A program made the translations under genes and the position numbers. 64,000 bases of DNA from Mya arenaria (taxonomy: Eukaryota > Mollusca > Bivalvia > Myida > Myidae): NCBI RefSeq assembly GCF_026914265.1, contig NC_069130.1, positions 37,440,988-37,504,987 of the forward strand, in the 5' to 3' direction. Under the pieces are notes generated by a model that had not been told where the DNA came from, made no database searches, and saw nothing but the letters and a program-made list of their open reading frames with translations. Below, in pieces: positions 17,569 to 52,708 of the stretch; position 1 is the first letter of the stretch, and each line of letters opens with the position of its first letter.

Positions 17569-17600
17569 CAATATTGTTGATTTAAATGGATATAGGAACA

Positions 17601-27900: not shown

Positions 27901-28074
27901 ATGTCGGAAAAATTGACTTTCTTAATTGTTTTGTCCGTCGGGGCTTTCCTTTTCGTTATTTTATTGATCTATTTGCTTTCATCAGCAATTTTCTGGTTAT
28001 TTTTTATAATTTGGGTCAGCTCTTGGTTTATAACTATTATTTTATTTACTACAGATAACGGGGAGGTCGTGTGA
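27901..28074 (+). CDS. Small hydrophobic protein, duplicate of 19970-20143
   Basis: Same 57-residue, two-membrane-segment frame beginning MSEKLTF. Its status depends on whether the copy 1 frame is real. Confidence 0.2.
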   Translation: MSEKLTFLIVLSVGAFLFVILLIYLLSSAIFWLFFIIWVSSWFITIILFTTDNGEVV

Positions 28075-28204
28075 GTATTTTGTAATTTATTTCTGTTGCG
28101 AAGTACTTCTTTTGCTGTCAGTTTTGGTATTTTGTTGAAATATATTGAGCTTACTTCTTTACGGCTTGCAGGCTTTCCTGTTTCTTGCTTAAGGCTTTTG
28201 GATT

Positions 28205-28471
28205 TTAAATATTATTTTTTTCTATGAAGAGTATGTTTTGATGGTGATTCTCCTTTGGCATATCTAACGTCTTTTGGAGTGCCGTTTGGATTACTTGATC
28301 GCCCTCATCATTTTGATCTTCTTTTCCTTTGTCTCTGTCGTCGTCATTGAAGTTAAAACCTAATTCTATATTTTCAAAAGTATTCAAATCCAAAATCTTG
28401 TCAAAGAAGTCTTCCTCACCACTATCCTTCGAAAGGTAAAAATCACCGTGAAGTAGGGTAACGTACTTTCC
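28205..28471 (-). CDS. Possible exon, duplicate of the 20281-20541 frame
   Basis: Same acidic segment (GKYVTLLHGD...). A one-base difference in a T run near the end changes the last residues to KNNI before the stop. Confidence 0.25.
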   Translation of the reverse strand, partial: GKYVTLLHGDFYLSKDSGEEDFFDKILDLNTFENIELGFNFNDDDRDKGKEDQNDEGDQVIQTALQKTLDMPKENHHQNILFIEKNNI

Positions 28472-28941
28472 CTGTGAGATTTGTTTTTTTTTTCTTGTAG
28501 TTTTGTTTTGGCATCCAATTATGAGTCTTTCCTTTGGTGTTTAGTTTCTGATTTATTATCTTTAGCTTGTAGCTTTGTTTTGTCGTCCTTTTTTGGTTCT
28601 CTGGTTTGAGGTTTAGTTTTGGTGTTGGAATTCTGATCTTCAAGTGTTGTTTAGTTTTGGCATCTGTTTTTGATTCTTTGGTTGTACATGTAGTTTTTGT
28701 TTGGGTTTCCATTATTGATTCATTGGTTTGAGGCTTTGTTATGGTTTCTGGTTTCTGGTAAGTTGGAGTTTTGTTTGAGTATATTTTTTTATTATTTGGC
28801 TTGAAGTTTCTGGTTCACTATGTTACTTGTTGGCCTTTAATGGTGTAAGATGTCATTTCATTCGAATTTTCAGCTTTCTGTTTAAGACATGTGGATAAAA
28901 ATAATTTATGTTCATATGTTTAAAGATGCACTCTTACTCCC

Positions 28942-32600: not shown

Positions 32601-33000
32601 TGTCACTGGGATTGTCTCGTATCTTGCTTGTCAGCTATTTTATAGGCCTCAAGTCTTGTTGCCATTTGCTCTGCTTAGGAGAGTGTTATGGGTCTGCTTC
32701 TCTCAATTTCAATCTCATCTCTTGCTCATATGATGAATCAAAGAAGTGATCCTTGTAAATGGTCTCCAGAAATTCAATGTGGGCATTTTGATAAGCTAAG
32801 ATTGTCATCTTTTTATTGTCTTGGGCAAGGTCGGAAATACTTTCTCCTACTTTTCTGATTCGTCCTCTCAGCTTAACTCTGAAAACCTTTTTCTGATTAA
32901 TTTACCCACATCTTTCTCTCAGTTTCTGTGTAAATGTTTGTCCTTTCAATTCTTTGCAGTTAAGTCAGAATACCTCTAGTCCTCCCTGTTAGGCTGCTAA
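29700..33000 (-). mobile_element. Ty3/Gypsy LTR-retrotransposon fossil, broken
   Basis: Read on the minus strand, the pol order is preserved: reverse transcriptase (about 31990-31650, with the IDFRKVN-type palm region), RNase H (about 31150-30860, with NYHHFLYDH and SCDILSRRP) and the end of integrase (about 30140-29780). The part above 32000 probably derives from the upstream gag/protease region but is not recognisable. The element is degraded, with many breaks (at least six or so across pol), so it is an old, immobile copy. Long terminal repeats were not identified with confidence; the block at 33100-33350, also found at 39112-39358, could be a remnant of its end. Confidence 0.75.
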
Positions 33001-33098
33001 CTAGGTAAGTTGTTGTAAGTATGGAGACCCACGATTTATTTGCCTGCATATTTCAAAGGAATTAATGTACTCAAATACGTCATATCTTGGATATCTAA

Positions 33099-33352
33099 GA
33101 TGTGAATCAGGCTGTTCAGTGTTATAACCCTTGTTTTGAGGGTTATCTATTCTTGTCCTGAAAGGGTAGGCAACTCTATATGTGGTGTCAAACTCTATCA
33201 TATTGGTTCCTATTACAGTAAAGGAAGTCTATATCTGGGTCTGGGGAGGGTTAAGATATGTTGTGTTGACCCTATCCGGAAGGTGAGTACACAGACTCTG
33301 ATCCTTGTGGACATTTCGTGAATCTGATGGGTTCTGTAACTGGGCTTTGGTT
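33099..33352. repeat. Dispersed repeat, about 250 bp, found three times
   Basis: A block containing GGGTCTGGGGAGGGTTAAG and CTATCCGGAAGGTG recurs at 39112-39358 and, without its left part, at 45229-45370. It may be a retroelement end fragment because it abuts the Gypsy fossil; this is inference. Confidence 0.6.
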
Positions 33353-33836
33353 GGGCGGGAATGTTCGACCCATCAAGGGAGATAACTAAGTTGCCCATAT
33401 TTCGGTCACGTTAAGGTGTGATACTAAAATAATTGGTCTCCCTTTAATCAGTGCAGCAATTTTAATTAAGGCTCGTGTTTCTTGTATCGTCATGATCTCC
33501 CTCTATCAACGCACTATTAGCGAAACAAACATATGTTACGGGTTTTGTTATTGATAGCAATCAATAATCGTGACTGTATTAATCTGTATAAAATTCACAT
33601 CATGTTATGGCTGTGCAGTAAAGTAACATATTTCAGGGTAGTTTTTTTGGCAGGTAAAATTGACTGGACTGGACTGCAGTCCTAGAACGAAGATCATGCT
33701 ATCCGGATAACGGCCCTTGGGTTTAAAGGATTGAGCCCCGTGGAGCGATCCCGTCACAAGTTTTTGGCCCGGTATGACAAGATGGTCAATCCTATCCGGA
33801 AGTTCAAAAAATCGTAGTCCGCACGACTCGCCTTCC

Positions 33837-33837
<1 letters not shown>

Positions 33838-33896
<59 letters not shown>
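33838..33896. repeat. TA microsatellite
   Basis: About 29 TA units. The same position in the duplicate (45862-45876) has only about seven, and the related position at 38583-38673 has about 45. Confidence 0.95.
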
Positions 33897-33900
<4 letters not shown>

Positions 33901-34899
33901 TTATGCTTCTACACGTATGAAATATTTTAGATTTACTTGTATATTGAAGATGCAATCCTTGCCCAAAATTTCAACTTGGCGGACTTTTGTAGAACTAGGC
34001 AACGCTGTGTGCGTTTAAATCTTCGCGTTAAATTACAAATAGAGTACCTCCATTAACTTACACATTGTTGAATTTGAAATCGAAGACCAGTAATGTTATT
34101 GATTGGAAAGATAAAGGTCCATTGATTTCACACGTAATGCCAATTTATTATAGTGGGAGGGGTTGGGGAGAACCGCGAACGCGATTGGATGATGCGTCTA
34201 GAGAACTATTCCATACACGCATTCTGGCGATCAGCAAACCATTACGATAACAGCTAAGCAGACGATTATACGGCCGCCACGCCTTCTTGCTATAGGTCTA
34301 CTATAACGGAAGCCTTAGCTTTGATTTGTCAATATTTATTACTGTTTTGATATATCGGTTATTAGCCTCGCCAAGGAGAGGCACGTCGGCCCCGACAACC
34401 CAAAGGCCTGGTGAAAACCTGAATTGTCACAGAAAGAGCAGTGGGACCACTCTAGATGTCATTCATCGTAGGGTTCAAAATTACTCGTTTGGCGAATATC
34501 CCACAAAACGGTGTGAATAAAACTCCCCATTTGGCCTCAAAAATATGATTCAGTCACACTTGGGGATATGACGGGGTCAAGCCATAATGCAGCCACTATA
34601 AGGCGCGGGTAGACTTTTATTAACTCAACAACAAATTCTCACAGAAAAGTTCTCAATGTGAAGTATAATACTCGCTACTAAATTGGTCCACAAATACATG
34701 TATCCACCAAACATGATTTTGTATTATACTATATCAGTACTATTAACTTTCTACATAAAATATAACAAGTTAAAACAAATTAATTCTAAGTTTTCACATT
34801 TAAGGATATACATGTACATTACTGCATATTGATGAAATTATGCGTATGCATTTAAATGTATCATACTTTTGTTTCAAAAATTTGATAGTTGTAAGGAAA

Positions 34900-35330
34900 A
34901 TATTTATAATGAGCTTAATCAATTTTAATCATATGAATCCTATCATCTGTTCAAGTAAGTATTGAGCTTATTATTGCAAAATCCGGCGTCTTGGGATAAA
35001 TGTATTGTAATATGAAACGTTATGTGTAGGTAGACGATAATACAGTATTACATAATACTACCTACTACACAATTACCGCCTGAATATATTTTATGCATTA
35101 TAAATATTTTAAAACATGTTTCATAGCAATTTCTATCTGCATATATATCATTACCGCCTGGACATATATCATTGCCGCCTGCATATTTATGCTGCAATAT
35201 ATTGTTAAATAATTCCTATACATTAGACACATGTTTCAAAGCAATTACCGTCAATTCCTGTCTGCATATATATTATGTAACATATTGTTGAATAATTTTT
35301 ATGTATATTAGACTCCGAAAAGAGCAGACA
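34900..35330. repeat. Diverged single units of the 92-bp satellite
   Basis: Contains TATTGTTAAATAATTCC, ACATTAGACACATGTTTCAA and 'TGTCTGCATATATAT' blocks like the 42391-42970 array, but only one to three diverged units. Repeated at about 46850-47275. Confidence 0.55.
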
Positions 35331-35419
35331 CGTATTTTAAAATTACTTTGGCTATGTAAAAGGTAAGACCTTTAAATAATACATAGGGAGGTGATGAAAG
35401 ATTCTTAAAGAATTTAGTT

Positions 35420-35863
35420 TTAAAGCTGCACTCCCATAGATTGGCAGTTATAAGTTTTATTTTATGTTCCAGAATCAGCTGGTTTTATTGTCGATTCCTT
35501 CAATTCAGTCGTTTAAAATAACTAATTAAAGAAAATACATATTGTATCTCAATTGTATGGAAAACTGCTCATACCGTAAGTAGAACGCTTTTAGTCATAA
35601 AACTTACCGCAAGGCTTGCGCGCATTGAATGATAGTTAGGCCGAGCGTGAGCTGATAAGCGGGAAGAAAGCACGTGACGTGTTAATTAGTGCCCAGTCTG
35701 GGCCCAGCATGGGGGCAGCGGCTGTGTTGACCCTTCCTCTAAATGCAATTAAGAATCTTAATTTTACTTATATTACAAGTTTTCAGACATTGACGCAAAT
35801 ATTGGCTGACATTCTAAATGAAAAAAAAGTCAAAACGGTCAATTTTTGAGAGTGCAGCTTTAA
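35420..35863. mobile_element. MITE, TTAAAGCTGCACTCTCAC family, with extra internal sequence
   Basis: Left end TTAAAGCTGCACTCCCATAG and right end TTGAGAGTGCAGCTTTAA. A GC-richer block (about 35610-35750, with GTGCCCAGTCTGGGCCCAGC) is not in other copies and may be a captured or inserted sequence. The duplicate is 47365-47813. Confidence 0.65.
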
Positions 35864-36212
35864 GTTATGAAAGGTAAATGAATGATCCCAGTAGCCTAAG
35901 CATTTGGTGTGTTTGCTACAATTAATTCATGCAATTATTTGATTGTATGTTCTCGCCAGAAGTAAATTAAACCTATTTCGCCTTGCATATTTAATTATGC
36001 AAACTGAAACTCATTACGTCAGAAAACTTTGTCATCTTCAGGATCCATATTCACTGACGTCTTCAGTTTGAGACTCAAGTCTCAAAAATGTTTATCTTGA
36101 TTTTGATGTTAAACAAAAACTAGAACATTGGCCAAAAGTATCAGAAAATCCTGATTGCTTTCCTTTACTAGACTAGCAAAATCATCAGCTGAAAAGTAGC
36201 AATAAATAATCT

Positions 36213-36413
36213 TCATTTGATCATGTCCGATTGCTTTGATTCTGAAAAGTTCAAATCAGAAATACCACTTGCTCTAGCACAGAAATTTGACCCTGAACCT
36301 CTTTTATCAAATGCATCATCGTCAGCCGTATCTGAACCAATGGTCGATAAATGTTTAGCAACACTGGACCTAATTTGCCGGTAACGCCTCCGATATTCTG
36401 TCGTCCTTTTCAT
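36213..36413 (-). CDS. Hypothetical 66-codon frame, basic N-terminus
   Basis: MKRTTEYRRRYRQIRSSVAK opens a frame that looks like the start of a DNA-binding or transposon-related protein. The copy in the second block (about 48166-48368) has five extra bases after codon 7 (TAT AGT ATC) and is therefore out of frame. It may be a first exon or a dead fragment. Confidence 0.25.
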   Translation of the reverse strand: MKRTTEYRRRYRQIRSSVAKHLSTIGSDTADDDAFDKRGSGSNFCARASGISDLNFSESKQSDMIK

Positions 36414-36932
36414 AAGGGCATTTCAGTGAATTAATTAATTTTCTACATACTGCATCAATTGTTAGTTGTGCAATGGAGGACTTGGTTGGTGGTTTACCAT
36501 AATTGATTAATTATGACCGTTGACAAATATGCCCATGCAGATGAAAGAGGCAAAAAGTCACCGTGACTTGGACAGTTTATATAGATAATATCACAAACTT
36601 TAAAATTGAAGACAGACTTCCGCGGAAATACACGGCAAAGGCAAAGCAAAAATATAAATTGCGTTAACAACTTTCGTATACACACAATATGTACATGCAT
36701 TTAAAATTGCAATTCGATAATGTGAGATCGTTGTTCTGCATTTAAATGAATTATTATCTACGTGTACAATTTAGTAAATTTACTGTTTCAAAACACCTTG
36801 GCGAGAAATGATCGAGAGCTCTTTTCCCTGTGCTAAACTTATTCAGTTATTAATAATTTTTCGAAATTAAAGTTTTGATGCTGACTTATAATTATATTGT
36901 AGTTTACCCGGAGGCCTCCTGAATCAAAAAGT

Positions 36933-37350
36933 ATGTCTCCATCGCAATTGCTCTTTGTCATCCTAAGCTTGTCTTTGCTGTGCGGGCCAGGGCAAGCAAT
37001 TCCTCGTATGCTACGCAGTGGGCCTGCAGCAACCGATGCTAATCAAGAAGGAGTCACTCGAATGCCACAAGTGCTTCAAGAGGGAGTCACTCGAATGCCA
37101 CAAGCGCTTCAAGAGGGAGTCACTCGAATGCCACAAGCGCTTCAAGAGGGAGTCACTCGAATGCCACAAGCGCTTCAAGCCAGTAGTACCGTTCAACATA
37201 TTATGCCGGACGAACAAACGTCTAGATCTCGAAAATCGCTTAGTTAAACTAAAGGAAACACGGAGCGTCCTTCGTAACGATAAAAAAGGAATAAAAAGGA
37301 TGGAGTTACATGGACGAATTCTTCTGCCCCTAAGTAAGATTCGAAATTGA
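36933..37350 (+). CDS. Secreted repeat-peptide gene A (4 units)
   Basis: ATG at 36933 begins MSPSQLLFVILSLSLLCGPG, a classic signal peptide with likely cleavage after GQA. Four 33-bp units follow (37047-37178). In the signal-peptide frame they read EGVTRMPQALQ, and the frame ends at 37247 (104 aa). In the next frame, open from 37018 to 37350, they read RESLECHKRFK, with Lys-Arg pairs as in peptide precursors, and run into a 56-residue basic tail (PVVPFNILCRTNKRLDLENR...). An acceptor-like TATATTGTAG lies 36 bp before the ATG, so an upstream non-coding exon is possible. No family recognised. Which frame is used, or whether both are, cannot be settled by eye. Confidence 0.6.
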
Positions 37351-38260
37351 ATTATTGCATAAATTTTATCAACGAAATAAAATATGAACTGCTATTTTGG
37401 TTGCATATGTTACAGTCAAACCCGTGGGCCCTGACCTTTTGGACTCAGTCAATTGAAACAGTCACTTACCCTATTCAACAGCTATTATTTTAAAGTTATT
37501 GCATCATCTTTTCGACAGAAGCATATACAGTGCATGTATGAATAGATGTAAAGTAATCAAAGGGCAATAACTCCAGAAATACAATATACAAAGTAATGTG
37601 AGTTTTTTGCTGCATAGTACTTCTCCCCAACACAGTCAATACGTATTTACAGTTTAAAACAAATAACTCAAAACAAAAGGCTTCTGAAATAAAATGGAAA
37701 GAAACTCTGATAATAAGTGAAAAGCTGGAATGGAAAACCATATATGGTAACATTTACAAATCATTTATAGATACAACATTGCATAGCTTCAACTACAAAT
37801 TCGTTATACTGCAGTAAGAATATTACCGACCAACCAATTTCTGTTTAAAATCAAAATTCAAAATTTGCAATTCAAATGTAGAATCAATTGAACATTTATA
37901 TTGGGAGTGTCAAAAACACAACAGTTATGGAACAAATTCAACAACTTTATTGCATTGACGCCAATGAATATAACAATTTACAAGCATGAAGCCCTATTGG
38001 GATTTGTCAAGAAAAGCAAGTTCAGTAATATCTGTAATATTTTAATTATCTTATATATCTATATACATATATACTTGATACATTATGTAAATACGACATA
38101 TATTGAAAATAAATGAGAAAAAAAATCCTTCCAGTAACAAACAAATGTTACCGGTTTTACTACAGATCACAATCAATAATCGATATTGTATAAATATGTA
38201 TAAAATTCACATCATGTAATGGCTGTTCAGAAAAGAAACATATGGCGCATGTGAGTTTGG
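37351..38260. other. 3' flank of gene A
   Basis: Diverged match to the flanks of genes B and C up to about 37600 (CAGTCAAACCCGTG, GGACTCAGTCAATTGAAACA), then unique AT-rich sequence. No gene seen. Confidence 0.45.
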
Positions 38261-38261
38261 T

Positions 38262-38375
38262 TTGTGGTCACCAAGCCGGACAGTGGGTTTCTCCGGTACT
38301 CAGGTTCCCCCCCCCCACGCAAAAGACCACATTCTCGCGTAAAATCGTGCCAACGAGAGTGATTAATATATTGTT
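38262..38375 (+). repeat. SINE 3' part (molluscan tRNA-SINE-like)
   Basis: GCCGGACAGTGGGTTTCTCC, a C-run, AAAGACCACATTCTCGCGT and GTGCCAACGAGAGTGATTAA occur in order. The same order, on the minus strand, is seen at 43450-43620 together with a box-B-like GAGTCGATTCCC. Confidence 0.5.
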
Positions 38376-38580
38376 AAAATAACTAGTTTCACAATCGTTG
38401 TAAAATAAATAAGTTTAAACTAAAGTTATATAGTTCAGGGTTTTTTGGCAGGTAAAATTGACGGACTACAGTCCAAGACTAACGATTATACTATACGACT
38501 AACGGCCCCTTGAGATAAAAAGATTAATCCCCCGGGAGCGATCCCGTTACAAGTTTGCAAGATGGTCAATCCTATCCAAT

Positions 38581-38582
<2 letters not shown>

Positions 38583-38673
<91 letters not shown>
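38583..38673. repeat. TA microsatellite
   Basis: About 45 uninterrupted TA units next to a diverged copy of the 33640-33840 sequence. Confidence 0.95.
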
Positions 38674-38675
<2 letters not shown>

Positions 38676-39658
38676 TTTTAATCAGATCCCCAATACACGC
38701 TTCACGACGTTACGCTATGTGGATCTGAGGACTTCGCGTAAGGGGTCACCTCAGATTGACCTCTCCACTAGCCAATGAAATTGCTCGTTACGTCGAAGGC
38801 AGACACGAAACTGACGTTTTCTCCAAACGTCATGGCCGAATTAAGCTGTGAGTATATGGCAATTTTACAAAAAAAATAGCAAATTCGTATGCTCAGAATG
38901 GTGTCGTTTTGATGAAACTTTCAGGGTTTCTTTCGAAACTACTTTTCTCTCTGTATACCAAATGCCATTAAAAGGACACCATTTTAAGATGCTGCAATAG
39001 CCGTTTATTTACGAGGTAAACACCGGCATCCGTCACTTGTAGATGTAAACCGATTGCTACTGGATTAAGTTTATAATAAATATTCCTTTCCATCCTGTAT
39101 TTTCTTTTATCTAAGATGTGGATCAGGCTGTTCAGTGTTATAACCCTTGTTTTGGGGGTTATCTATCCTTTCCTGTAAGGGTAGGCAACTCTATACGTGG
39201 TGTCAAACTCTATCATATTGGTTCCTATAACAGTAAAGGAAGTCAATATCTGGGTCTGGGGAGGGTTAAGATATGTTGTGTTGACCCTATCCGGAAGGTG
39301 GGTACACAGACTCCTTGTGGACATTTCGTGAATCTGATGGGTTCTGTAACTGGGCTTTACATAACGTAATGAAATGAAGTGAACGTCACGATATGATTTT
39401 AATGAGATTGGGTTTTTATCCATCTTGTAAGGTAAACATATAAGAACAGCATTTGCTGCGAAAAGTGATTTGCTTCTTGTAGCTGTATAATTTAATGTCG
39501 TAGGTTTTACTTAAAGGACCATACCTTTTTTATATTATTATAATGAGTAATATATCAGTTGCTCTGGATAGTGTATTGGAATGAGTCGAGTTCATCATCA
39601 AAAAAAAGTTTCTAGTATCTCGCAGAATCGATGACGTCATAGGAGAAATGATCGAATG

Positions 39659-41741
39659 TATAGTTTGACCAGAAATTATTGAGAATTTTATTAACAACTT
39701 TGATGTGGCAACATATTTATTTTGTGCTTAACATCAATTAACTTCTTTTAATATAAGGGGACGTGACTCTTTCCTTAAATTGTCCAGTAGTCTGTTAGAG
39801 CAGACGACCTTGAAAGCAGTGATGGGATTACAACTGCAAGCACCATTTCAGAAACTGCAAACATTCCTCTATCTACTGTATCATGCCGGGTAATCATTGG
39901 AGCCATAACATTTTGTTATGTGTTGAAGATCGCAAGGGAGTGCTTGTTAATTTAGGTGATTGACTGTAAAATACATTTTCTTGCAAATTTTGAGCTACGG
40001 AGTGATTTTTTTTCTCGACATGAATATACCCGCCTCTTTTTCCCTTTAAAGACACCCATCTGAAAATATATAAACACAATCGTAAGATTTTTGCCCTATA
40101 ATACCAGGAAATACAGAATTTGAATTACGACGATCATTTGTTTTTAAGTATTAATTTATTAGACACAAAATGAACTTTAAAGTTCGCAAAGCAGTGTGGT
40201 AGTTGGTCATACTTTAAAATGATCGAAAATGATATCAATTCAGTTAATTTTCATGTTATGAAATTGCTACATTTTTTCACAATTCGTTTCCTTCTAAATT
40301 ACTATTCATGAGCACCACAACCTATTCATTGGCACCACAACGTTCAGAAAATCGAGTATAGTGCAGCAAGTATAACAAATAAAGTTCTAAAATTTGTAAC
40401 GCGGTAACCTTTTGTCAATAAAAAAGCCACACACGTGTAAAGAAAATGCTTAAACCTAAGGTACAAGAACGATTCTCACGAAAATCCAGAGTTTTACCTT
40501 GTCAACACTAACATCTAGCAAGTTATGCAAGTTCTAAACGATCAGATATTAATTTTCATTCACAACTTTTACATTTAGAACAACTCATAACCATTCCTAT
40601 GTGGAACTACTTTCTCCATCTTATAAAATTTACTCGAATAAACCCCTAAAATGAAAAATAAGAAACCATACTCACTGTTTACATCCATATTCCACTCATT
40701 GGCACTATAACGGAAGACGCGTTGGAGCATTTTCAGGGTATACAGGGTTTTGAGAAAAATTGAGAATGGACAGGGAATAGAGCATACGAAGGGAGCAGGT
40801 AGGCTTCAAAGTTTGACAGTTGGTGAGTCGGAGGAGGTTGGGTTTAGTCACATCCAAAAACAGGAGATGGAGTATTTCCATGATCAGAGGTGAAATGATT
40901 TACATGGGCACTGTGCCGGTATCCAAAGAGACCATGAGGAAAGAGCTTCATTCCATAGGCTTGGAAAAAAGAATGCAACGCCATCTCCTCTCATGAAGCC
41001 AGAGCAAAAACAGAAGAGGTTGGATTGGTGTTTGCGTCACAGAGACTTTAAATGGGATAATGTGATATTCTCTGATGAAAGCTCTTTCTGGCTCTACCCA
41101 AATGGTATGAAAATGTGGACTAAAGACGACAAATCTTTACTTTACCAGCGACCAAAACACAGTCCCAAGTTCCATGTGTGGGGTGGGGTATGTCTCTTTG
41201 GAGTGACGCCACTTTGTGTCTTCGAAGGTAATCTTACCAGTGAGCGGTATACATACATTCTTCATGGACATTTGATTCTAACAGCCCAGGTTTTGTATGG
41301 ACATGAATGGATTTTGCAACAAGATAATGATCCAAAACATACTGCCGAACATGCAAAATCCTGGTATTTCGCGGAAAATGTCACAGTTTTGGAGTGGCCA
41401 AGTTACAGTCCTGATCTAAATCCTATTGAGAAAATTTGGGGATTAATGAAGAACAATATCAACCAGAAAAACCTAACTACCATAGATGCAATGAACCAGG
41501 AGGTAGTCCATTTCTGGGACACTGTGGACCCTGATTTGATAACTTCTTTGATAGGGAGTATGCCCAGGAGGATTGAAGCATGTATTACTCAGGAAGGCGG
41601 ACTTACACAATATTGAAAGCTGGTGACTTTATATTGTGAATATATGTTCAATATCATGATATAAACAAATAATTGATGCTATGTTTTGTTCTAGTTCTAT
41701 GTATTAAATCATAAATCTCAATAATTTCTGGTCATACTGTA
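39659..41741 (+). mobile_element. Tc1/mariner transposon with inverted ends
   Basis: The left end at 39659 (TATAGTTTGACCAGAAATTA) and the right end at 41716-41741 are inverted repeats of about 26 bp (TAYAGTWTGACCAG...). Both tips are TA. The 2.08-kb body carries the transposase described separately. The 5' side before the transposase is about 1 kb, longer than usual, so it may hold other insertions. Confidence 0.75.
40993..41616 (+). CDS. Tc1-like transposase, catalytic part (DD34E)
   Basis: The 207-codon frame contains FSDESSFWLYPNG, the QQDNDPKHTAEH motif and WPSYSPDLNPIEKIWG. Thirty-four residues separate the second Asp from the Glu, which is the Tc1 spacing. Upstream, about 40720-40975 encodes helix-turn-helix-like pieces (RVLRKIENGQGIEH, VSKETMRKELHSIG) in another frame. 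A length change in the A-run near 40965 would account for the shift, so the transposase is probably inactive. The frame also continues upstream of Met as KNATPSPLM. Confidence 0.85.
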   Translation: MKPEQKQKRLDWCLRHRDFKWDNVIFSDESSFWLYPNGMKMWTKDDKSLLYQRPKHSPKFHVWGGVCLFGVTPLCVFEGNLTSERYTYILHGHLILTAQVLYGHEWILQQDNDPKHTAEHAKSWYFAENVTVLEWPSYSPDLNPIEKIWGLMKNNINQKNLTTIDAMNQEVVHFWDTVDPDLITSLIGSMPRRIEACITQEGGLTQY

Positions 41742-42390
41742 CATGTAGGTATTCTTAGAATCGAGGTGTATTCTCCGGATGACATGGTTTAGTGAAAAAC
41801 ATGAATACGGAAAAAGGAGACAAACAAAACCATTTCACAGAAGCCATTTATGGACCGTCATCATTAGGAAAACTACGGAGCAGAAAAACGATCTTTTGAC
41901 GCTATATTGTTTTATTTGTAAATGCAATGAGAGTATCAGTCACAAGTATGGCAGTCAAAAGAATTTGGGGAGATTGATCACGGTGGAGAACCCACGTGAC
42001 TTTTTGGTCATGTGCACGCCAAATACTGTAAACAACAGATCTCGATTCAGGTAGTTTGTTTTAGATAACTTTCATAATAGTGGGAGAATTTTGTAATATA
42101 AAAACCATTAACCCTGCAATTGAGAGCACTGTCCACGGTTATATAGAACTTTCTCTTAAATCATAAGCTTTTTCTGAAAACTTGACCAACTGATTTCTCG
42201 GAGTTGAAAATGTTTCAAAGCAGTTATTATCGCCTACCAACACATGGTATTATCCGATGCCTACACAATTATTGTCTGCATACATTTTATGGATTATAGT
42301 TACTTTGAAACATGTTTCAAAGCAATTACCTTCTGCATATAAATCATTACCGTCTGAATATACATATATATTATCATTATGCAACATATT

Positions 42391-42970
42391 GTTGAATAAT
42401 TGCTACACATTAGACTCCTGTTTCAAACCAAATACTGTCTGCATACATATAATGACCGTCTACATAGTATGCAAAATATTGTTGAATAATTGCTACACAT
42501 TAGACTCCTGTTTCAAACCAAATACTGTCTGCATATACATATAATGACCGTCTACATAGTATGCAAAATATTGTTGAATAATTGCTACACATTAGACTCC
42601 TGTTTCAAACCAAATACTGTCTGCATATACATATAATGACCGTCTACATAGTATGCAACATATTGTTGAATAATTGCTACACATTAGACTCCTGTTTCAA
42701 ACCAAATACTGTCTGCATATACATATAATGACCGTCTACATAGTATGCAAAATATTGTTGAATAATTGCTACACATTAGACTCCTGTTACAAACCAAATG
42801 CTGTCTGCATATACATATAATGACCGTCTACATAGTATGCAAAATATTGTTGAAAAATTGCTACACATTAGACTCCTGTTTCAAACCAAATACTGTCTGC
42901 ATATACATATAATGACCGTCTACATAGTATGCAAAATATTGTTGAATAATTGCCACACATTAGACTCCTG
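42391..42970. repeat. 92-bp tandem satellite, about seven units
   Basis: The unit start GTTGAATAATTGCTACACAT occurs at 42391, 42481, 42573, 42665, 42757, 42849 and 42941, so the period is 92 bp (first unit 90). The units are very alike, with single differences. Diverged single units occur at about 34.9-35.3 and 46.9-47.3 kb and on both sides of the array, so it expanded from a local sequence. Confidence 0.95.
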
Positions 42971-43449
42971 TGCATATTATACAATTTATTTTTGAATTAT
43001 TGCTATACTTTAGGCACATGTTTCAAAGCAATTTTCGTATATATATATTTTGCGTATATACAATTACCGTCTGCATATTACGAAACATATTGTACATAAC
43101 ACATACTCGTTGTCATAGTAAACAGTCGGTTTGACGACTTCAAAGTTAAAATACAGCTTGGAAAATTGGAACTCGGGTCGAAACATCGCTTCCCTCGAGG
43201 TTTCAGCTCGCATCCCCGGCGTCTTCGCAGTTGTCCTGTATTAAATAGTGGAACAGTCATCTAACGAAACAAAGATGTCACCCCCGCTCCCATTAAAAAT
43301 CTAGCAATTAATCAATATTGGCCCTAGCCCGAAGACGTTAGTGCATTCGAGCCCAGTTTTCAAACTAAGTTTCAAACTTAGACTTAAGGCGTTTGTGAAT
43401 ATAGAATCAGTTTAGTTTCGACTATTTGTTCTAAAACGATTATAAAGAA

Positions 43450-43625
43450 AGTTATATTCACTGATGCTACATGTAAGTCACTCATGTTGGCACAATGCTG
43501 CGCGAGAGTAAGGTCTAGCACGTATTGTCCGGGAACCCGGAGATAACCCACTTGTCCGGCATGAGTGACCCCGAGCCATGCTCGCATACCCCCAAGCCGG
43601 GAATCGACTCAATGTCACCTTGGCT
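43450..43625 (-). repeat. SINE fragment with box-B-like promoter piece
   Basis: On the minus strand: GAGTCGATTCCCGGC (box B-like), then CTCGGGGTCACTCATGCC, GGACAAGTGGGTTATCTCC, ACTCTCGCGCAGC and TGCCAACATGAGTGA. This is the order seen in the 38262-38375 repeat. It sits about 130 bp before the start of gene B and is absent at genes A and C. Confidence 0.5.
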
Positions 43626-43756
43626 AGAAGTGATCGAGGGGCCTTGTCCCTGTGATAACAGTAAACTGATTCAGCTATTATTTTTTTCAAAATTCAAGTT
43701 TTGATGCTGACTTATGTATTGTAGTTGTTCACCGGAAGCCTCCTGAATCTAAAAGA

Positions 43757-44503
43757 ATGTCTACATCGCAGATGCTCTTTGTCATCCTAAGCTTGTCTTT
43801 GCTGTGCGGGCCAGGGCAAGCAATTCCTTGTCTGCGAAGCAATGGGCCTGCAGCAACCGATGCTAATCAAGAAAGAGTCACTCGAATGCCACAAGCGCTT
43901 CAAGAGGGAAACACTCGAATGCCACAAGCGCTTCAAGAGGGAGTCACTCGAATGCCACAAGCGCTTCAAGAGGGAGTCACTCGAACCCACAAGCGCTTCA
44001 AGAGGGAGTCACTCGAATGCCACAAGCGCTTCAAGAAGGAGTCACTCGAATGCCACAAGCGGTTCAAGAGGGAGTCACTCGAATGCCACAAGCGGTTCAA
44101 GAGGAAGTCACTCGAATGCCACAAGCGGTTCAAGAGGGAGTCACTCAAATGCCACAAGCGGTTCAAGAGGAAGTCACTCGAATGCCACAAGCGGTTCAAG
44201 AGGGAGTCACTCAAATGCCACAAGCGGTTCAAGAGGGAATCACTCGAATGCCACAAGCGCTTCAAGAGGGAGTCACTCGAATGCCACAAGCGCTTCAAGA
44301 GGGAGTCACTCGAATGCCACAAGCGCTTCAAGCCAGTAGTAACGTTCAACCGATTATGCCGGACGAACGAACGTCTAGATCTGAAAACTCGATTAGTTAA
44401 ACCAGAGAAAACAAGGAGTTTCCTACGTAACGGTAAAAATGGAATGAAAAGGTTGGATTTACATGGACGAATTCTTCAGCACCGACACAAGAATCAAAAT
44501 TGA
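43757..44503 (+). CDS. Secreted repeat-peptide gene B (14 units), 248 aa
   Basis: A single frame joins a signal peptide (MSTSQMLFVILSLSLLCGPG), three units read as (E/R)(G)VTRMPQALQ, one 32-bp unit (CGAACCCACAAG instead of CGAATGCCACAAG) that changes frame, ten units read as RESLECHKRFK, and a basic tail (PVVTFNRLCRTNERLDLKTR...). Units lie at 43871-44331. The Lys-Arg pairs on each side of ESLECH would allow release of many near-identical peptides in the secretory pathway, as in neuropeptide or antimicrobial precursors; this is inference. One Cys per unit could also cross-link an uncleaved protein. In units 6-11 GCGCTT is GCGGTT (still Arg-Phe). No homologue recognised. It is the only one of the three genes where signal peptide, dibasic units and tail share one frame. 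Confidence 0.6.
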   Translation: MSTSQMLFVILSLSLLCGPGQAIPCLRSNGPAATDANQERVTRMPQALQEGNTRMPQALQEGVTRMPQALQEGVTRTHKRFKRESLECHKRFKKESLECHKRFKRESLECHKRFKRKSLECHKRFKRESLKCHKRFKRKSLECHKRFKRESLKCHKRFKRESLECHKRFKRESLECHKRFKRESLECHKRFKPVVTFNRLCRTNERLDLKTRLVKPEKTRSFLRNGKNGMKRLDLHGRILQHRHKNQN

Positions 44504-45098
44504 ATCATAAATTTTATCAACAAAATAAAAATATGAACTGCTATTTTGGTTGCATATGTTACAGTCAAACCCGTGAACTCTGACCTTTTGGACTCAGTCA
44601 ATTGAAACAGTCACGTACCCTATTCAACAGCTATTATTTTCAAGTTAATACTTCATCATCTTTCGACAGAACCATAAACAGCGCATATATAAATAGATAT
44701 AAAATAATCAAAGGTCAATAACACCAAAAGTATCATACACGAAAGCATGTGTTTTGCACAGTACTTCTCATCAACATAGTCAAGACGTGTTTGCAGTTTA
44801 AAACAAAAATAAAGAGTAATGGAGATAAGTAGACTTGTCACAGTACAACATAAATATAAAACTAATCAAAGGGCAATAACTCCAAAATACCAAACACAAA
44901 TATTGTTTCTTTAGCAAGCACTTCTCAAAACAGTCATTATGATTATGAAGTTTGAAGTCAATACCTAAATAAATATGGTACAATCATAATAAAAGTACAT
45001 TAATGGTTCAATGTGAAAATCTGACTACACCTTACAGAGCACTTATTTGACAAGATCTATCAGAGGGATCATGCACGACTATTCAGCCCCTTTTAAGT

Positions 45099-45235
45099 TT
45101 AAAGCTGCACTCTCACAGATTGAACGTTTTGACAACTTTTTAAGTTTTTGTCTTGGAACAAGCCAACTTTTGTGTAAATCCATAGAAACCAGTTATAAAA
45201 CACTGCTGACAAACAAATTAGATCCCAGATTCCTA
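45099..45235. mobile_element. Truncated MITE at a duplication junction
   Basis: Left part of a TTAAAGCTGCACTCTCAC element that stops at GATCCCAGATT and passes straight into the sequence found at 33206. The complete version is 49789-50155, so the MITE was cut by the rearrangement. Confidence 0.8.
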
Positions 45236-45853
45236 TTACATAAAAGGAAGTCTATATCTGGGTCTGGGGAGGGTTAAGATATGTTGTGTTGACCCTATCG
45301 GGAAGGTGGGTACACAGACTCTGATCCTTGTGGACATTTCGTGAATCTGATGGGTTCTGTAACTGGGCTTTGATTGGGCGGGAATATTCGACCCATCAAG
45401 GGAGATAACTAAGTTGCCCATGTTTCGGTCACGTTAAGGTGTGATACTAAAATAATTGGTCTCCCTTTAATCAGAACAGCAATTTTAATCAAGGCTCGTG
45501 TTTCTGGTATCGTCATGATCTTCCTCTATCAACACACTAATAGCGAAACAAACACATGTTACGGGTTTTGTTATAGATAGCAATCAATAATCGTGACTGT
45601 ATACATATGTATAAAATTCACATCATGTTATGGCTGTGCAGTAAAGTAACGTATTTCCGGGTAGTTTTTTTGGCAGGTAAAATTGACTGGACTGGACTGC
45701 AGTCCTAGAACGAAGATCATGCTATCCGGATAACGGCCCTTGGGTTTAAAGGATTGAGCCCCGTGGAGCGATCCCGTCACAAGTTTTTGGCCCGGTATGA
45801 CAAGATGGTCAATCCTATCCGCAAGTTCAAAAAATCGTAGTCCGCACGACTCG

Positions 45854-45882
45854 CCTTCCGTATATATATATATACGGAAGGA
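45854..45882. repeat. Perfect palindrome left by TA contraction
   Basis: CCTTCCG, a short TA tract and CGGAAGG form a perfect hairpin. In the source copy the corresponding right arm is missing and the TA tract is about four times longer. Confidence 0.75.
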
Positions 45883-47364
45883 AGATGCAATCCTTGCCCA
45901 AATCGCCCAAAATTTCAACTTGGCGGACTTTTGTAGAACTAGGCAACGCTGTGTGCGTTTAAATCTTCGCGTTAAATTACAAATAGAGTACCTCCATTAA
46001 TTTACACATTGTTGAATTTGAAATCGAAGACCAGTAATGTTATTGATTGGAAAGATAAAGGTCCATTGATTTCACACGTAATGCCAATTTATTATAGTGG
46101 GAGGGGTTGGGGAGAACCGCGAACGCGATTGGATGATGCGTCTAGAGAACTATTCCATACACGCATTCTGGCGATCAGCTAACCATTACGATAACAGCTA
46201 AGCAGACGATTATACGGCCGCCACGCCTTCTTGCTATAGGTCTACTATAACGGAAGCCTTAGCTTTGATTTGTCAATATTGATTACTGTTTTGATATATC
46301 GGAAATTAGCCTCGCCAAGGAGAGGCACGTCGGCCCCGACAACCCAAAGGCCTGGTAAAAACCTGAATTGTCACAGAAAGAGCAGTGGGACCACTCTAGA
46401 TGTCATTCATCGTAGGGTTCAAAATTACTCGTTTGGCGAATATCCCACAAAACGGTGTGAATAAAACTCCCCCTCAAAAATATGATTCAGTCACACTTGG
46501 GGATGTGACGGGGTCAAGCCATAATGCAGCCACTATAAGACGCGGGTAGACTTTCATTAACTCAACAACAACAACAAATTGTCATAGAAAAGTTCTCAAT
46601 GTGAAGTATAATACTCGCTACTAAACTGGTCCACAAATACATGTATCCACCAAACATGATGCTGTATTATACTATATCAGTACTATTAACTTTCTACATA
46701 AAATATAACAAGTTAAAACAAATTAATTCTAAGTTTTCACATTTAAGGATATACATGTACATTACTGCATATTGATGAAATTATGCGTATGTATTTAAAT
46801 ATATCGTACTTTTGTTTCAAAAATTTGATAGTTGTAAGGAAAATATTTATAATGAGCTTAGTCAATTTTAATCATATGAATTCTATCATCTGTTCAAGTA
46901 AGTATTGAGCTTATTATTGCAAAATCCGGCGTCTTGGGATAAATGTATTGTAATATGAAACGTTATGTGTAGGTAGACGATAATACAGTATTACATAATA
47001 CTACCTACTACACAATTACCGCCTGAATATATTTTATGCATTATAAATATTTTAAAACATGTTTCATAGCAATTACTGTCTGCATATATATCATTACCGC
47101 CTGGACATGTATCATTGCCGCCTGCATATTTATGCTGCAATATATTGTTAAATAATTCCTATACATTAGACACATGTTTCAAAGCAATTACCGTCAATTC
47201 CTGTCTGCATATATATTATGTAACATATTGTTGAATAATTTATATATATATTAGACTCCGAAAAGAGCAGACACGTATTTTAAAATTGCTTTGGCTATGT
47301 AAAAGGTAAGACCTTTAAATAATACATAGTGAGGTGATGAAAGATTCTTAAAGAATTTAGTTTT

Positions 47365-47813
47365 AAAGCTGCACTCCCATAGATTGGCAGTTATAAGTTT
47401 TATTTTATGTTCCAGAATCAGCTGGTTTTAGTGTCGATTCCTTCAATTCAGTCATTTAAAATAACTAATTGAAGAACATACATATAGTATATAGTTTGGA
47501 AAACTGCCGAAACACTCATACCGTAAGTAGAACGCTTTTAGTCATAAAACTTACCGCAAGGCTTGCGCGCATTGAATGATAGTTGGGCCGAGCGTGAGCT
47601 GATAAGCGGGAAGAAAGCACGTGACGTGTTAATTAGTGCCCAGTCTGGGCCCAGCATGGGGGCAGCGGCTGTGTTGACCCTTCCTCTAAATGCAATTAAG
47701 AATCTTAATTTTACTTATATTACAAGTTTTCAGACATTGACGCAAATATTGGCTGACATTCTAAATGAAAAAAAAAAGTCAAAACGGTCAATTTTTGAGA
47801 GTGCAGCTTTAAG
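47365..47813. mobile_element. MITE, duplicate of 35420-35863
   Basis: Same ends and same internal GC-richer block; carried by the block duplication, with a few point differences. Confidence 0.65.
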
Positions 47814-48880
47814 TTATGAAAGGTAAATGAATGATCCCAGTAGCCTAAGCATTTGGTGTGTTTGCTACAATTAATTCATGCAATTATTTGATTGTATGTT
47901 CTCGCCAGAAGTAAATTAAACCTATTTCGCCTTGCATATTTAATTATGCAAACTGAAACTCATTACGTCAGAAAACTTTGTCATCTTCAGGATCCATATT
48001 CACTGACGTCTTCAGTTTGAGACTCAAGTCTCAAAAATGTTTATCTTGATTTTGATGTTAAACAAAAACTAGAACATTGGCCCAAAGTATCAGAAAATCC
48101 TGATTGCTTTCCTTTACTTGACTAGCAAAATCATCAGCTGAAAAGTAGCAATAATTAATCTTCATTTGATCATGTCCGATTGCTTTGATTCAGAAAAGTT
48201 CAAATCAGAAATACCACTTGCTGTAGCACAGAAATTTGGCCCTGAACCTCTTTTATCAAATGCATCATCGTCAGCCGTTTCTGAACCAATGGTCGATAAA
48301 TGTTTAGCAACACTGGACCTAATTTGCCGGTAACGCCTCCGATACTATACTCTGTCGTCCTTTTCATAAGGGCATTTCAGTGAATTAATTAATTTTCTAC
48401 ATACTGCATCAATTGTTAGTTGTGCAATAGAGGGCTTGGTTGGTGGTTTACAATAGTTGATTAATTATGACCGTTGACAAATATGCCCATGCAGATGAAA
48501 GAGGCAAAAAGTCACCGTGACTTGGACAGTTTATATAGATAATATCACAAACTTGAAAATTGAAGACAGACTTCCGCGGAAATACACGGCAAAGCAAAAA
48601 TATAAAATGCGTTAACAACTTTCGTATACACACAATATATACATGCATTTAAAATTGCAATTCGATAATGTGAGATCGTTGTTCTGCATTTAAATGAATT
48701 ATTATCTACGTGTACAATTTAGTAAATTTACTGTTTCAAAACACTTTGGCGAGAAGTGATCGAGAGCTCTTTTCCCTGTGCTAAACTTATTCAGTTATTA
48801 ATATTCTTTCGAAATTCAAGTTTTGATGCTGACTTATAATTATATTGTAGTTTACCCGGAGGCCTCCTGAATCAAAAAGT

Positions 48881-49199
48881 ATGTCTCCATCGCAATTGCT
48901 CTTTGTCATCCTAAGCTTGTCTTTGCTGTGCGGGCCAGGGCAAGCAATTCCTCGTATGCTACGCAGTGGGCCTGCAGCAACCGATGCTAATCAAGAAAGA
49001 GTCACTCGAATGCCACAAGCGCTTCAAGCCAGTAGTAACGTTCAACCGATTATGTCGAACGAACGAACGTCTAGATCTGAAAACTCGATTAGTTAAACCA
49101 GAGAAAACAAGGAGTTTCCTACGTAACGGTAAAAAAGGAATGAAAAGGTTGGATTTACATGGACGAATTCTTCAGCACCGACACAAGAATCAAAATTGA
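48881..49199 (+). CDS. Secreted repeat-peptide gene C (1 unit), A/B hybrid
   Basis: Signal peptide identical to gene A (MSPSQLLFVILSLSLLCGPG) and the same IPRMLRSGP, then a single 33-bp unit (48995-49027) and a tail like gene B (PVVTFNRLCRTNERLDLKTR...). The signal-peptide frame ends at 49096 (71 aa). The frame carrying ESLECHKRFK and the tail is open from 48966 to 49199 (77 aa). The switch from A-like to B-like sequence lies between about 48968 and 49000. Coding status is open, as for gene A. Confidence 0.55.
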
Positions 49200-49788
49200 A
49201 TGATAAATTTTATCAACAAAATAAAAATATGAACTGCTATTTTGGTTGCATATGTTACAGTCAAACCCGTGAACTCTGACCTTTTGGACTCAGTCAATTG
49301 AAACAGTCACGTACCTTATTCAACAGCTATTATTTTAAAGTTAATACTGCATCATCTTTTCGACAGACCAGCGCATATATAAATAGATGTAAAATAATCA
49401 AAGGTTAATAACTCCAAAACTACCATACACGAAAGCATGTGTTTTGCACAGTACTTCTCATCAACACAGTCAAGACGTGTTTGCAGTTTAAAACAAAAAT
49501 AAAGAGTAATGGAGATAAGTAGACTTGTCACAGTACAACATAAATATAAAACTAATCAAAGGGCAATATCTCCAAAATACCAAACACAAATATTGTTTCT
49601 TTAGCAAGCACTTCTCAACACAGTCATTATGATTATGAAGTTTGAAGTCAATACCTAAATAAATATGGTACAATCATAATAAAGGTACAATAATGTTTCA
49701 ATGTGATAATCTGACTACACCCTACAGAGCATTTATTTGACAAGATCTATCAGAGGGATCATGCACGACTATTCAGCCCCTTTTAAGT

Positions 49789-50155
49789 TTAAAGCTGCAC
49801 TCTCACAGATTGAACGTTTTGACAACTTTTTAAGTTTTTGTCTTGGAACAAGCCAACTTTTGTGTAAATCCATAGAAACCAGTTATAAAACACTGCTGAC
49901 AAACAAATTAGATCCCAGATTTTTGATATTTAAGTTCAAATATTGATGTTTTATGCATTTTTCTTAAACCGTTAGTAATGGTTTAAGCCATAAAACATTA
50001 ATTTCCGAACGGAAATATGAAAATCTACGATCTAATTATTTGTCAGCAATCTTAAATCATTGGTTTGCAGATATTTATGCAAAAAAATTGCTCTTTCAAA
50101 GACAAACAATAAAAAAAGTTGTAAAAATGGTATATCTGTGAGAGTGCAGCTTTAA
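49789..50155. mobile_element. Complete MITE, TTAAAGCTGCACTCTCAC family
   Basis: Left end TTAAAGCTGCACTCTCACAG (within TTTAAAGC) and right end CTGTGAGAGTGCAGCTTTAA. It is the intact counterpart of the element cut at 45235. Confidence 0.8.
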
Positions 50156-50773
50156 GGATTACAAAGTTTTGGTAAAATATGTGTGAATCACTATAAAATG
50201 AGATTACATGCAAAACCTTATCCAGAGTTTCTAATTTGAACAAAATGGGTTATGATTTGCATTTTATGCAATTTACTTGATTAACGAAGATTGGATAGTA
50301 AAGAACAGCTGTCAAAAGTTTTAATGCAATACTTGATGTATTTGCTGAGATAATACTAGAAGTTGCTAACATTCAAACTGGCATTTACCACAATCAAATG
50401 TACTCTGATAAAGTCTCAATAAGCTTTTCAAACCATGAATTATAGATGATTTAGAAACAAATAAGAATTTTCTTCCACTTCTGTTTAATGAAAAATGAAT
50501 ATCTCTGAAATTAAATAGTGTATTTCAATTGGTCACATATTTAATAGTTAGGTATATGCTAAAAAAATTAGCTCGACAAAAGCTGACACGCTCAAGACCG
50601 TTTCTTGAGCAGACACCAGTACTGGCCCAAATTTCTCGAAACTTCATAAGTTTAACAGAAATAAGCAGCTTATTCCATTTAGTCATTTTTTGACATAATG
50701 AGATTTTGATATATGAAAAATCGTTTATTGTAATTATTAGATATAAGTTATAATATAACACTCCTATTAGAAG
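50156..50773. other. Intergenic AT-rich stretch
   Basis: No gene, repeat or clear structure recognised. Confidence 0.4.
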
Positions 50774-50950
50774 TACAGTCAAAACTCGCTATGTCGAAAG
50801 TGTTTGACCTCGGGAAATACTTCGAGATAACGAACTTTCGATATAACCGAAATACAAATAGCGTATAAATTAATTCAACACAATCGAAAAAAGTTTGACA
50901 TAAGGAGAACATCGAGATAGCAATGTTTGACATGGCGAGCCTCGACTGTA
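50774..50950. mobile_element. MITE with TACAGTCAAAACTCGC ends
   Basis: The ends TACAGTCAAAACTCGCTATG and the diverged right end (GGCGAGCCTCGACTGTA) make it a member of the family at 11506-11654. TA tips. Its right arm is more diverged, so the copy is older. Confidence 0.7.
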
Positions 50951-51285
50951 AATACATGTATTACGATAAATAGAGATAAATAAAAGTAGTGAGCTTAACA
51001 ATAAGGCACTAATGAAGTTTCGAGAAACTTGATTGGGCCTAGTATCCATTTTGAGAGGGTATGAGAAGGAGGCCGTGGTGGAGATTGCATCCGCAGCCCC
51101 TTGGGTGAGAGGCGGACACCTGTACAACTAGACAACTATCACCTTCTAAGTGCAAAGCCGCTCTGTAAAAGCTGAGTATGGATTACTTCCCCTATCACTA
51201 TGTATATAGACTGGATTACTTCCTCTATCACTTTTCTCTATGTATATAGGTTGGATTACTTCCCCTATCACCATGTTACATAACT

Positions 51286-51545
51286 GTCTCCGTGGCCTAG
51301 TGGTAAAGGCGTCCGTCTACGGAGCGGGAGATCAAACGTTCGAGTCTCACACGGGGCTTGTTCCGACATGGCAGGTTGCCGACCATGCAGCTAGTTAAAT
51401 CGAGGGGTACCGATTGCCTTCCTGCCAGGCGCCTCGCATTTGGGATAGGAATCGATGTAAAGATATTCACGATTGAAGGTGTCTCATAAGCCCAACGGGC
51501 TGGCCTTAACTAAGAGAGGTGACACTATAATAAACAAACACTTTA
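51286..51545 (+). repeat. tRNA-derived SINE
   Basis: The head has a box A-like TGGCCTAGTGGTAAAGGC and a box B-like GTTCGAGTCTC at tRNA spacing, with cloverleaf-like arms, followed by a ~180-bp non-tRNA body and an AT-rich tail (AATAAACAAACACTTTAC). The tRNA-like part lacks a proper anticodon stem, so I call a SINE and not a tRNA gene. Just upstream, 51175-51275 holds three imperfect copies of TGGATTACTTCCCCTATCAC. Confidence 0.7.
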
Positions 51546-52708
51546 CTTTTTATTGGATTTAGTACGCAGGGGAATGGACTATGCAATAGCGTTGATATTA
51601 ACATTTTGGTACTGAAAAATATGGTAAAAATTGTAGGAAATGTTACACAAACAAGAATATCGCTGAAAGCAATGGAATGCTAACCATACGCCTTTTTATC
51701 TATGAAAGACAGAAATTATCATACAACCTGATGTTAAAAGGTATATGCTTGAACAATTATTATACACAAGTTTGAAAAAAATCATAACATAGAAAGATAT
51801 GGACAGGTATGAGAATTAAATTTTAAAGTAAATTTTAAGAGATGAAAGAAAACAGCAGCAATGAAATTTCATAAATATTCGATTTTTAAAAGCAGATAGG
51901 GGGGAGGGGGAGATAACTAAAAACATGCAGCTCAGGATTATAACTTAATAAACACGAAAGGATTATGGTTCTTCAATTGCCATCTATCTATATACCAAGA
52001 CCCAGGTAAGCACCAATCATGAAAAAAATGATTAAGGGGAGATAAGTAGTATTTTTGAAATGAAATAATGTCCAGAAAAGGAATCTACTAAATACCTGAA
52101 ATAACATACATTTCACAAACAAGCTTTTTAGGCCTTGAAAAATTCCAACATAGGTCATTTCATGTAGAATTATTGTTCCTATGAAAAAGGACATATGCAA
52201 ATTGTAATAATTATTACATTATGTATAAAAAGTTTATCATATAATGTACTTTTGGTTATTTGTTTTCCATATTAGTAATCAGCAACTCCAGCTATATGAT
52301 TTTCATCCAGTACCAAATTATATGTGGTCCCCAGGCATTTTTAACTTATAATAATCATTGTTAATGGAGATATCAAAAATTTAGCTTGGGGGGTCAAAAT
52401 ACCTGGGGGTCTGTTTGGGTATGAGGGATTCATGCTTAAAGCAGGATCAAGGGGCTTAGACCCTTTTTGAAATTGTTTCCAAGTCATTTATATCCATTCA
52501 ATGTTCAAATACTTAATACTGATTTTGATGCATCTGTCCAAGCAAAACACACTTTTTATAACTGTACAAAACTTTTGTAAAACCAATTCCTAAGTTCCAC
52601 ACATATCACTTTCAACTTATCAGTCATGCAAAGTCATTTAAAGGCGTGAAAACAGTTCTAGCAGTTTCTTAATATAAGTCCACATTTTCACTCCTTGATC
52701 TGTTTTTT
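51546..52708. other. Intergenic, 3' side of CENP-S
   Basis: No gene recognised. The right end should contain the 3' untranslated region of the minus-strand CENP-S gene. Confidence 0.4.

Follow-up and report, generated by a model that had tools for sequence, protein, structure and literature searches.

Three neighbouring genes in a 64,000-bp stretch of the soft-shell clam genome (Mya arenaria, C9:37,440,988-37,504,987; hereafter the window) carry a 33-bp repeat, and the question they raise is which protein each of them would encode. A sequence-only reading had taken them for one family of secreted multi-peptide precursors built around the peptide RESLECHKRFK. We observed that the three-gene family, its shared predicted signal peptide and its varying copy number stand, whereas the shared precursor layout does not: RESLECHKRFK lies in the signal-peptide frame of gene 2 only, being absent from it in two of the three genes and, when a second cluster on the same contig is counted, in four of six. 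The account we favour is a young, low-copy tandem family of the soft-shell clam, in which a coding minisatellite lies behind a predicted signal peptide and an odd repeat unit switches the frame. We regard it as an evenly balanced proposition; on this view the locus looks like the usual course of evolution in a young gene family that carries a repeat.

When the arrays were split into units, gene 1 held four of 33 bp (37048..37179), gene 2 held 14 (43872-44332) and gene 3 a single one (48996-49028), all on the plus strand, as are the gene features described below. This agrees with the copy numbers first proposed, with one of the 14 units measuring 32 bp. Tandem Repeats Finder placed the 33-bp arrays at 37043-37179 and 43867-44332. 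The unit length is a multiple of three inside an open reading frame (ORF), and the copies number 4, 14 and 1 across paralogues, the pattern of a variable number tandem repeat (VNTR). The 32-bp unit is the fourth of gene 2 (43971..44002); it reads ACCC in place of ATGCC, shifts the frame, and occupies the same position of gene 2 in both clusters. Because 18 of the 19 window units are 33 bp long, parsimony suggests that the short unit is the derived state. The same count argues against a reverse history, which we hold to be improbable, in which the ancestor resembled gene 2 (signal peptide, frame-switch unit, RESLECHKRFK units and a 56-aa tail) and genes 1 and 3 were truncated after losing the 32-bp unit by array contraction.

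The absence of stop codons from the 33-bp unit in all three forward frames had been pointed out earlier. It is real, yet 65% of the unit's dinucleotide shuffles are equally open, and because of this the openness is expected and unremarkable; among 33-mers sampled from the window, 12% are open in three frames. Such openness fits a rival explanation, by which the minisatellite is a relic, or never had a function, within DNA that is decaying or not translated; tandem and segmental duplication would have spread it, and its ORFs would persist because the unit happens to be stop-free and the family is young. Judged from DNA and not from RNA, the genes may be a non-coding relic of this kind; we consider that unlikely, though a serious alternative.

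In the frame of the signal peptide the unit reads EGVTRMPQALQ, and the +1 frame gives RESLECHKRFK in genes 1 and 3. Starting at the signal ATG, the ORF of gene 1 (36933..37247, 104 aa) consists of a signal peptide (about 36933-36998, with a predicted cleavage point), four EGVTRMPQ(A/V)LQ units and a 22-aa tail that stops at 37247. Its counterpart in gene 3 (48881..49096, 71 aa) has one ERVTRMPQALQ unit and stops at 49096; the extent first given for this gene, 48881-49199, is not one ORF, since the stop at 49199 belongs to the other frame. The 248-aa ORF of gene 2 (43757..44503) runs from the signal peptide through three EGVTRMPQALQ-type units into the RESLECHKRFK frame and a 56-aa tail. Gene 2 alone connects the signal peptide with that frame, and it does so via the 32-bp fourth unit, a second open repeat frame being reached through an indel in one unit in both clusters. 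CHKRFK units in the signal-ATG ORFs accordingly number 0 in gene 1, 10 in gene 2 and 0 in gene 3. Where a repeat lacks stops in each of its three frames, the wrong one is easily chosen.

Codon-usage scoring used 1208 codons from 5 of 30 kinase loci; the other 25 were left out, either because they showed an internal stop when a flank of 1500 bases was assumed or because they nearly duplicated another locus. The scoring chose the right frame for two hyaluronidase exons. As weak evidence, it preferred the EGVTRMPQALQ frame in the gene 1 array (13.6 vs 7.0 bits) and, in the gene 2 array, scored a continuation of the EGVTRMPQALQ frame at 37.8 vs 27.1 for the frame of the ORF itself. Scoring of heads and tails did not give consistent answers.

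Genes 1 and 3 also contain overlapping second-frame ORFs with an internal ATG: 104 aa in gene 1 (37036..37350), in the RESLECHKRFK frame and lacking a signal peptide, and 71 aa in gene 3 (48984..49199). These ORFs could point to dual coding, in which both genes also start a second-frame protein at the internal ATG in the way that human MUC1 makes MUC1-ARF, a precedent described in an excerpt of PMC5074479. We give this idea hardly any credence: the internal ATG of gene 1 has a C at -3, where the signal ATG has an A, the second-frame ORF in the other copy of gene 3 is frame-shifted, and constraint is not significant in any frame.

Self-comparison of the window bears on how the family arose. The 5' part of gene 3 lies in a block (45881..49028) that matches the gene 1 side (33946-37080, 96.7% identity), and its 3' part lies in a block (48991..49921) that matches the gene 2 side (44295-45231, 96.6% identity). 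By these matches gene 3 is a hybrid, gene-1-like up to the array and gene-2-like after it, and its structure is what unequal exchange within arrays would leave. The match of its 3' part to the gene 2 side is also a point for a gene-2-like ancestor, as the donor array may have had the odd unit. Genes 1 and 2 are more diverged, with 28 differences in the first 168 tail bases, and their homology starts about 140 bases 5' of the ATG (about 43616 and 36794). Farther upstream, gene 2 showed no counterpart of the gene 1 sequence, or of any promoter or first exon that gene 1 may have there, beyond short repeat-like matches, the best of which covers 52 bases at 86.5% identity (42982-43033 to 35195-35246). 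Gene 2 is without the upstream sequence common to genes 1 and 3; just upstream of it is a dispersed repeat (43423..43634), which may be a short interspersed nuclear element by its length and gave 901 first-look candidates genome-wide, of which 40 were scored. Both the unlike upstream region and the dispersed repeat in it favour the relic explanation.

The surroundings of the genes contain further repeats. A 92-bp tandem repeat of 6.5 copies is located upstream of gene 2 (42378-42971), with related stretches upstream of genes 1 and 3 (35065-35316 and 47008-47259), and an ORF with a DDE_3 transposase domain (Pfam E 2e-19) lies between genes 1 and 2 (40993-41616). A mobile element as carrier of the genes was considered and dropped; the gene body was found at no fewer than six places, all on contig C9. 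A match on contig C17 (E 0.07) was taken as chance.

The same three genes occur again on the same contig, 677 kb away. They belong to a duplicated stretch that extends from about window position 4583 to past the window end (64000) and pairs with C9:36,775,997-36,832,000. Identity is 98.4-99.8% across long blocks, with lower values in a 1-kb block at the left edge (96.3%) and a 2.9-kb block left of the window (95.8%). The second cluster may have arisen by recent segmental duplication, or it may be an allele left uncollapsed. Paired equal-scoring matches about 0.8-2.1 Mb apart on one contig are found elsewhere (e.g. C4, C6, C13, C14, C10 and C11), and the assembly may be the cause of these.

Aligned over 18,861 bases, the two clusters differ by 30 mismatches and 9 indels, and 4 of the mismatches fall within gene spans. 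The one at 48937 in gene 3 is the only signal-peptide change and is silent in the signal frame; two in gene 2 units both alter residues; the fourth lies past the gene 1 signal-frame stop. Signal-ATG ORFs in the second cluster are 104, 217 and 71 aa long with 0, 9 and 0 CHKRFK units. The second gene 2 has lost 37 bp in its tail (248 to 217 aa), and the second gene 3 has gained 1 bp in its tail, outside the signal-frame ORF, which breaks the other frame; of these two indels, only that of gene 3 counts in favour of the signal frame, as does the silent change at 48937. Indels in two of three second-cluster tails are what a relic would show. They break the RESLECHKRFK-frame tail in genes 2 and 3, so that it is open in 3/3 window genes and 1/3 second-cluster genes, a tally that supports a gene-2-like ancestor. 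Genes 1 and 3 keep their signal-frame ORFs intact in 4/4 copies, and the signal-peptide-like start with an open ORF is present in 6/6 copies of the family, which argues against a relic.

The shared signal-peptide-like start noticed at the outset is almost identical in the three genes, reading MS(P/T)SQ(L/M)LFVILSLSLLCGPGQAIP. A crude signal-peptide rule of our own fired on 8 of the 68 ATG ORFs of >=60 aa in the window: genes 1-3, the start of a hyaluronidase, and four others (4/64 of the remaining ORFs). Because the rule also fires on those four, the predicted signal peptide is suggestive and no proof. Of the runs that are identical in genes 1 and 2, the longest (56 nt; column shuffling P = 0.00075) includes the signal-peptide core, which a relic would not lead one to expect. 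Just 5' of the gene 1 ATG is a putative 3' splice site (36897..36902), TTGTAG behind a conserved branch-like TGCTGACTTA stretch; the AG of the putative acceptor ends at 43724 in gene 2 and 48850 in gene 3. Both TGCTGACTTA and TTGTAG are conserved ahead of the ATG, with a variable spacer between them, and this conservation too speaks against a relic. Candidate polyadenylation signals, as motif matches only, follow gene 1 (37376..37381), gene 2 (44524) and gene 3 (49220); the motif is also present at 37290, inside the gene 1 second-frame tail.

A series of observations weighs against a coding minisatellite read in the signal frame. Where genes 1 and 2 share their signal stretch, the silent sites match as well, and for that reason gene conversion explains the identity equally well. 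The 37-bp indel removes the signal-frame stop of the gene 2 tail as well as shortening the ORF, and therefore speaks against constraint on either gene 2 frame. Counts of nonsynonymous (N) and synonymous (S) changes in three frames revealed no frame with significant purifying selection, and the neutral look of change in every frame is a further point for a relic. Across the three frames of the tail, the proportion of nonsynonymous differences (pN) was 0.152-0.167 against a synonymous proportion (pS) of 0.165-0.226 for genes 1-2, and 0.159-0.164 against 0.202-0.227 for genes 1-3. In the RESLECHKRFK frame, pN/pS of the tail was 1.0 (genes 1-2) and 0.74 (genes 1-3), and this neutral-looking divergence from gene 1 tells against a gene-2-like ancestor. 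That history can call on the three tail differences between genes 2 and 3, two of which are silent in the RESLECHKRFK frame (simulation P = 0.17).

Outside the units, genes 1 and 2 differ in the signal frame by 14.5 nonsynonymous and 1.5 synonymous changes. Neutral simulation gave a mean of 11.6 nonsynonymous changes of 16, and in 4.6% of runs the silent changes were no more numerous than those observed; it assumed a transition bias of 2, and the genes show 5 transitions and 11 transversions in this frame. The low silent count hints at diversifying change at most, and non-coding drift could equally produce it. The eight distinct unit variants, few as they are, split 7 N:1 S in the signal frame and 5:3 in each of the others. 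Finally, none of the three window genes has a stop within the 56-codon tail when it is read in the RESLECHKRFK frame (shuffle P = 0.018-0.035 if the frame is fixed, 0.05-0.09 if any of the three may serve). This openness and the two silent tail differences between genes 2 and 3 are mild hints that the RESLECHKRFK frame codes or once coded; random change matching the divergence of gene 1 from genes 2 and 3 would leave the tail open in 36-39% of runs.

Val, Met and Leu of the signal-frame unit fall on one face of an 11/3 helix, and its moment at 98 degrees gave permutation P = 0.0035 on the Fauchere-Pliska scale and 0.024 on the Kyte-Doolittle scale, as one of three frames tested. The 11-residue unit would fit an amphipathic 11/3 helix, a weakly supported idea that we keep as a lead. 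Such amphipathicity is not exceptional, as the same moment was reached, in the best frame, by 220 of 1540 (14%) sampled window 33-mers that are open in three frames. AlphaFold2 single-sequence models were long helices in both frames (predicted template modelling scores 0.33 and 0.34), and because of this they do not choose between the frames.

Gene 2 taken alone comes closer to what was first proposed. Its 248-aa ORF has the repeated peptide and basic sites in frame with the signal peptide, with 10 CHKRFK units, 9 furin-type RFKR sites and 21 KR/RR pairs, and CHKRFK is invariant across the ten units. RFKR is a furin-type cleavage motif, and cleavage there could release ESLECHKRF peptides. As a full explanation, gene 2 alone would be a working multi-peptide precursor, cut at RFKR by proprotein convertases into about ten ESLECHKRF-type peptides. 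We think this quite improbable. In genes 1 and 3 the signal frame does not contain RESLECHKRFK, the three leading units of gene 2 do not lie in the RESLECHKRFK frame, and gene 2 is missing the upstream sequence common to the other two genes. No amidation Gly precedes KR in gene 2 (0 GKR); such a C-terminal amidation Gly is common in precursors, though not obligatory. Unit variants stand at 5 N:3 S in this frame, showing no significant constraint, and each of the two point changes that separate the gene 2 copies alters a residue. Departures from CHKRFK occur elsewhere: the second copy of gene 2 has one Tyr for His, and the first unit of gene 1, read in the RESLECHKRFK frame, has KCFK.

We return to the coding minisatellite as the favoured account. 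A coding exon would hold a signal peptide followed by the 33-bp (11-codon) minisatellite, and the products of genes 1 and 3 would be short secreted proteins with four and one EGVTRMPQALQ units. Unequal exchange inside the arrays would change copy number, and would also have produced the hybrid gene 3. In gene 2, the one-base-short unit would carry translation into the second open frame, giving (RESLECHKRFK)n and a basic tail. Copy-number change that gained or lost the 32-bp unit would then switch the C-terminal protein. We infer transcription, splicing and secretion from the ORFs and motifs described above; the genes are probably a young, lineage-specific secreted-protein family, the lineage restriction being part of that estimate. 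Function is the least certain part of the account. A stronger version, in which the odd unit is a heritable frame switch whose gain or loss by unequal exchange toggles the secreted protein between two unrelated open frames, (EGVTRMPQALQ)n and (RESLECHKRFK)n with its basic tail, both states being kept in the family and perhaps segregating in the population, strikes us as very improbable. Should the locus be expressed, it would show in nature, and on a small scale, how a coding minisatellite gives rise to new secreted protein sequence: its paralogues lie within a few kilobases of one another, differ in the frame and copy number of the array, and include a hybrid whose recombination can be traced. 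Should it not be expressed, it is a commonplace minisatellite within a duplicated stretch.

The rest of the window has features of its own. A 7.93-kb tandem duplication (13084-21011 and 21011-28941, 99.8% identical; 12619-28941 overall) contains hyaluronidase (Glyco_hydro_56) exons and is present in two copies in the window and one in the second cluster; its edge lies inside a 30-bp minisatellite (12619-13181, 21011-21108). Retroelement fragments with reverse transcriptase and RNase H are on the minus strand at 30861-32015. At 53002-57696 a 22-bp unit is repeated about 217 times in a 4.7-kb array whose composition is strongly strand-asymmetric, and a 970-codon open frame at 69-2981 had no Pfam match at E 0.01.

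Searches for relatives of the family were negative within their scope. None of four family proteins matched Pfam at the curated cut-off (best E 0.043), and among PDB chains there was no credible relative, the best synuclein match having E = 0.45. The gene 1 repeat had matches to OR464 (E 1.7e-6), which is a designed protein, and to an ankyrin chimera (E 0.001), and we took both as repeat composition. With the gene 2 protein as query, viral and prokaryote contigs gave 2 and 56 pattern stretches, none of which passed tblastn, an outcome to be expected of a clam gene; this and the lack of a credible Pfam or PDB relative are in line with a relic. Rfam gave nothing above gathering scores over window positions 32000-52000, and the four unit peptides had no exact-letter match in the PMC literature searched.

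Three known systems resemble the clam genes in layout. Molluscan multi-peptide (neuropeptide) precursors have a signal peptide and a repeated short peptide between basic cleavage sites. Gene 2 shares this arrangement; genes 1 and 3 do not have it in the signal frame, and the family shows no amidation signal and no family match. Synuclein and exchangeable apolipoproteins are built of 11-residue helix repeats. The clam unit is like them in its 11-residue period, its EGV and a weak amphipathic 11/3 pattern, and differs in a Pro in every copy and a signal peptide; the search of PDB chains showed no homology to them. By analogy, MUC1 is the best mechanistic likeness, with sequence homology neither claimed nor implied, and its VNTR has many more copies than the clam arrays. 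In MUC1, a downstream AUG gives MUC1-ARF, a protein demonstrated with specific antibodies according to the excerpted PMC5074479. The clam genes are alike in that a downstream AUG opens a second frame through the same array, and unlike in that their counterpart is only an ORF, whereas MUC1-ARF was detected by antibodies (same excerpt). A one-base change in a MUC1 VNTR unit yields a frameshift neoprotein (MUC1-fs, ADTKD-MUC1), as an excerpt of PMC5843638 reports. The MUC1 unit is 60 bp and its change is a disease insertion; in the clam an 11-codon unit falls one base short, and it does so in each of the two copies of a single paralogue. In both systems, as far as the excerpt describes MUC1 (PMC5843638), a coding repeat is open in more than one frame, and a one-base change in a unit gives, or in the clam would give, a different repeat protein and tail.

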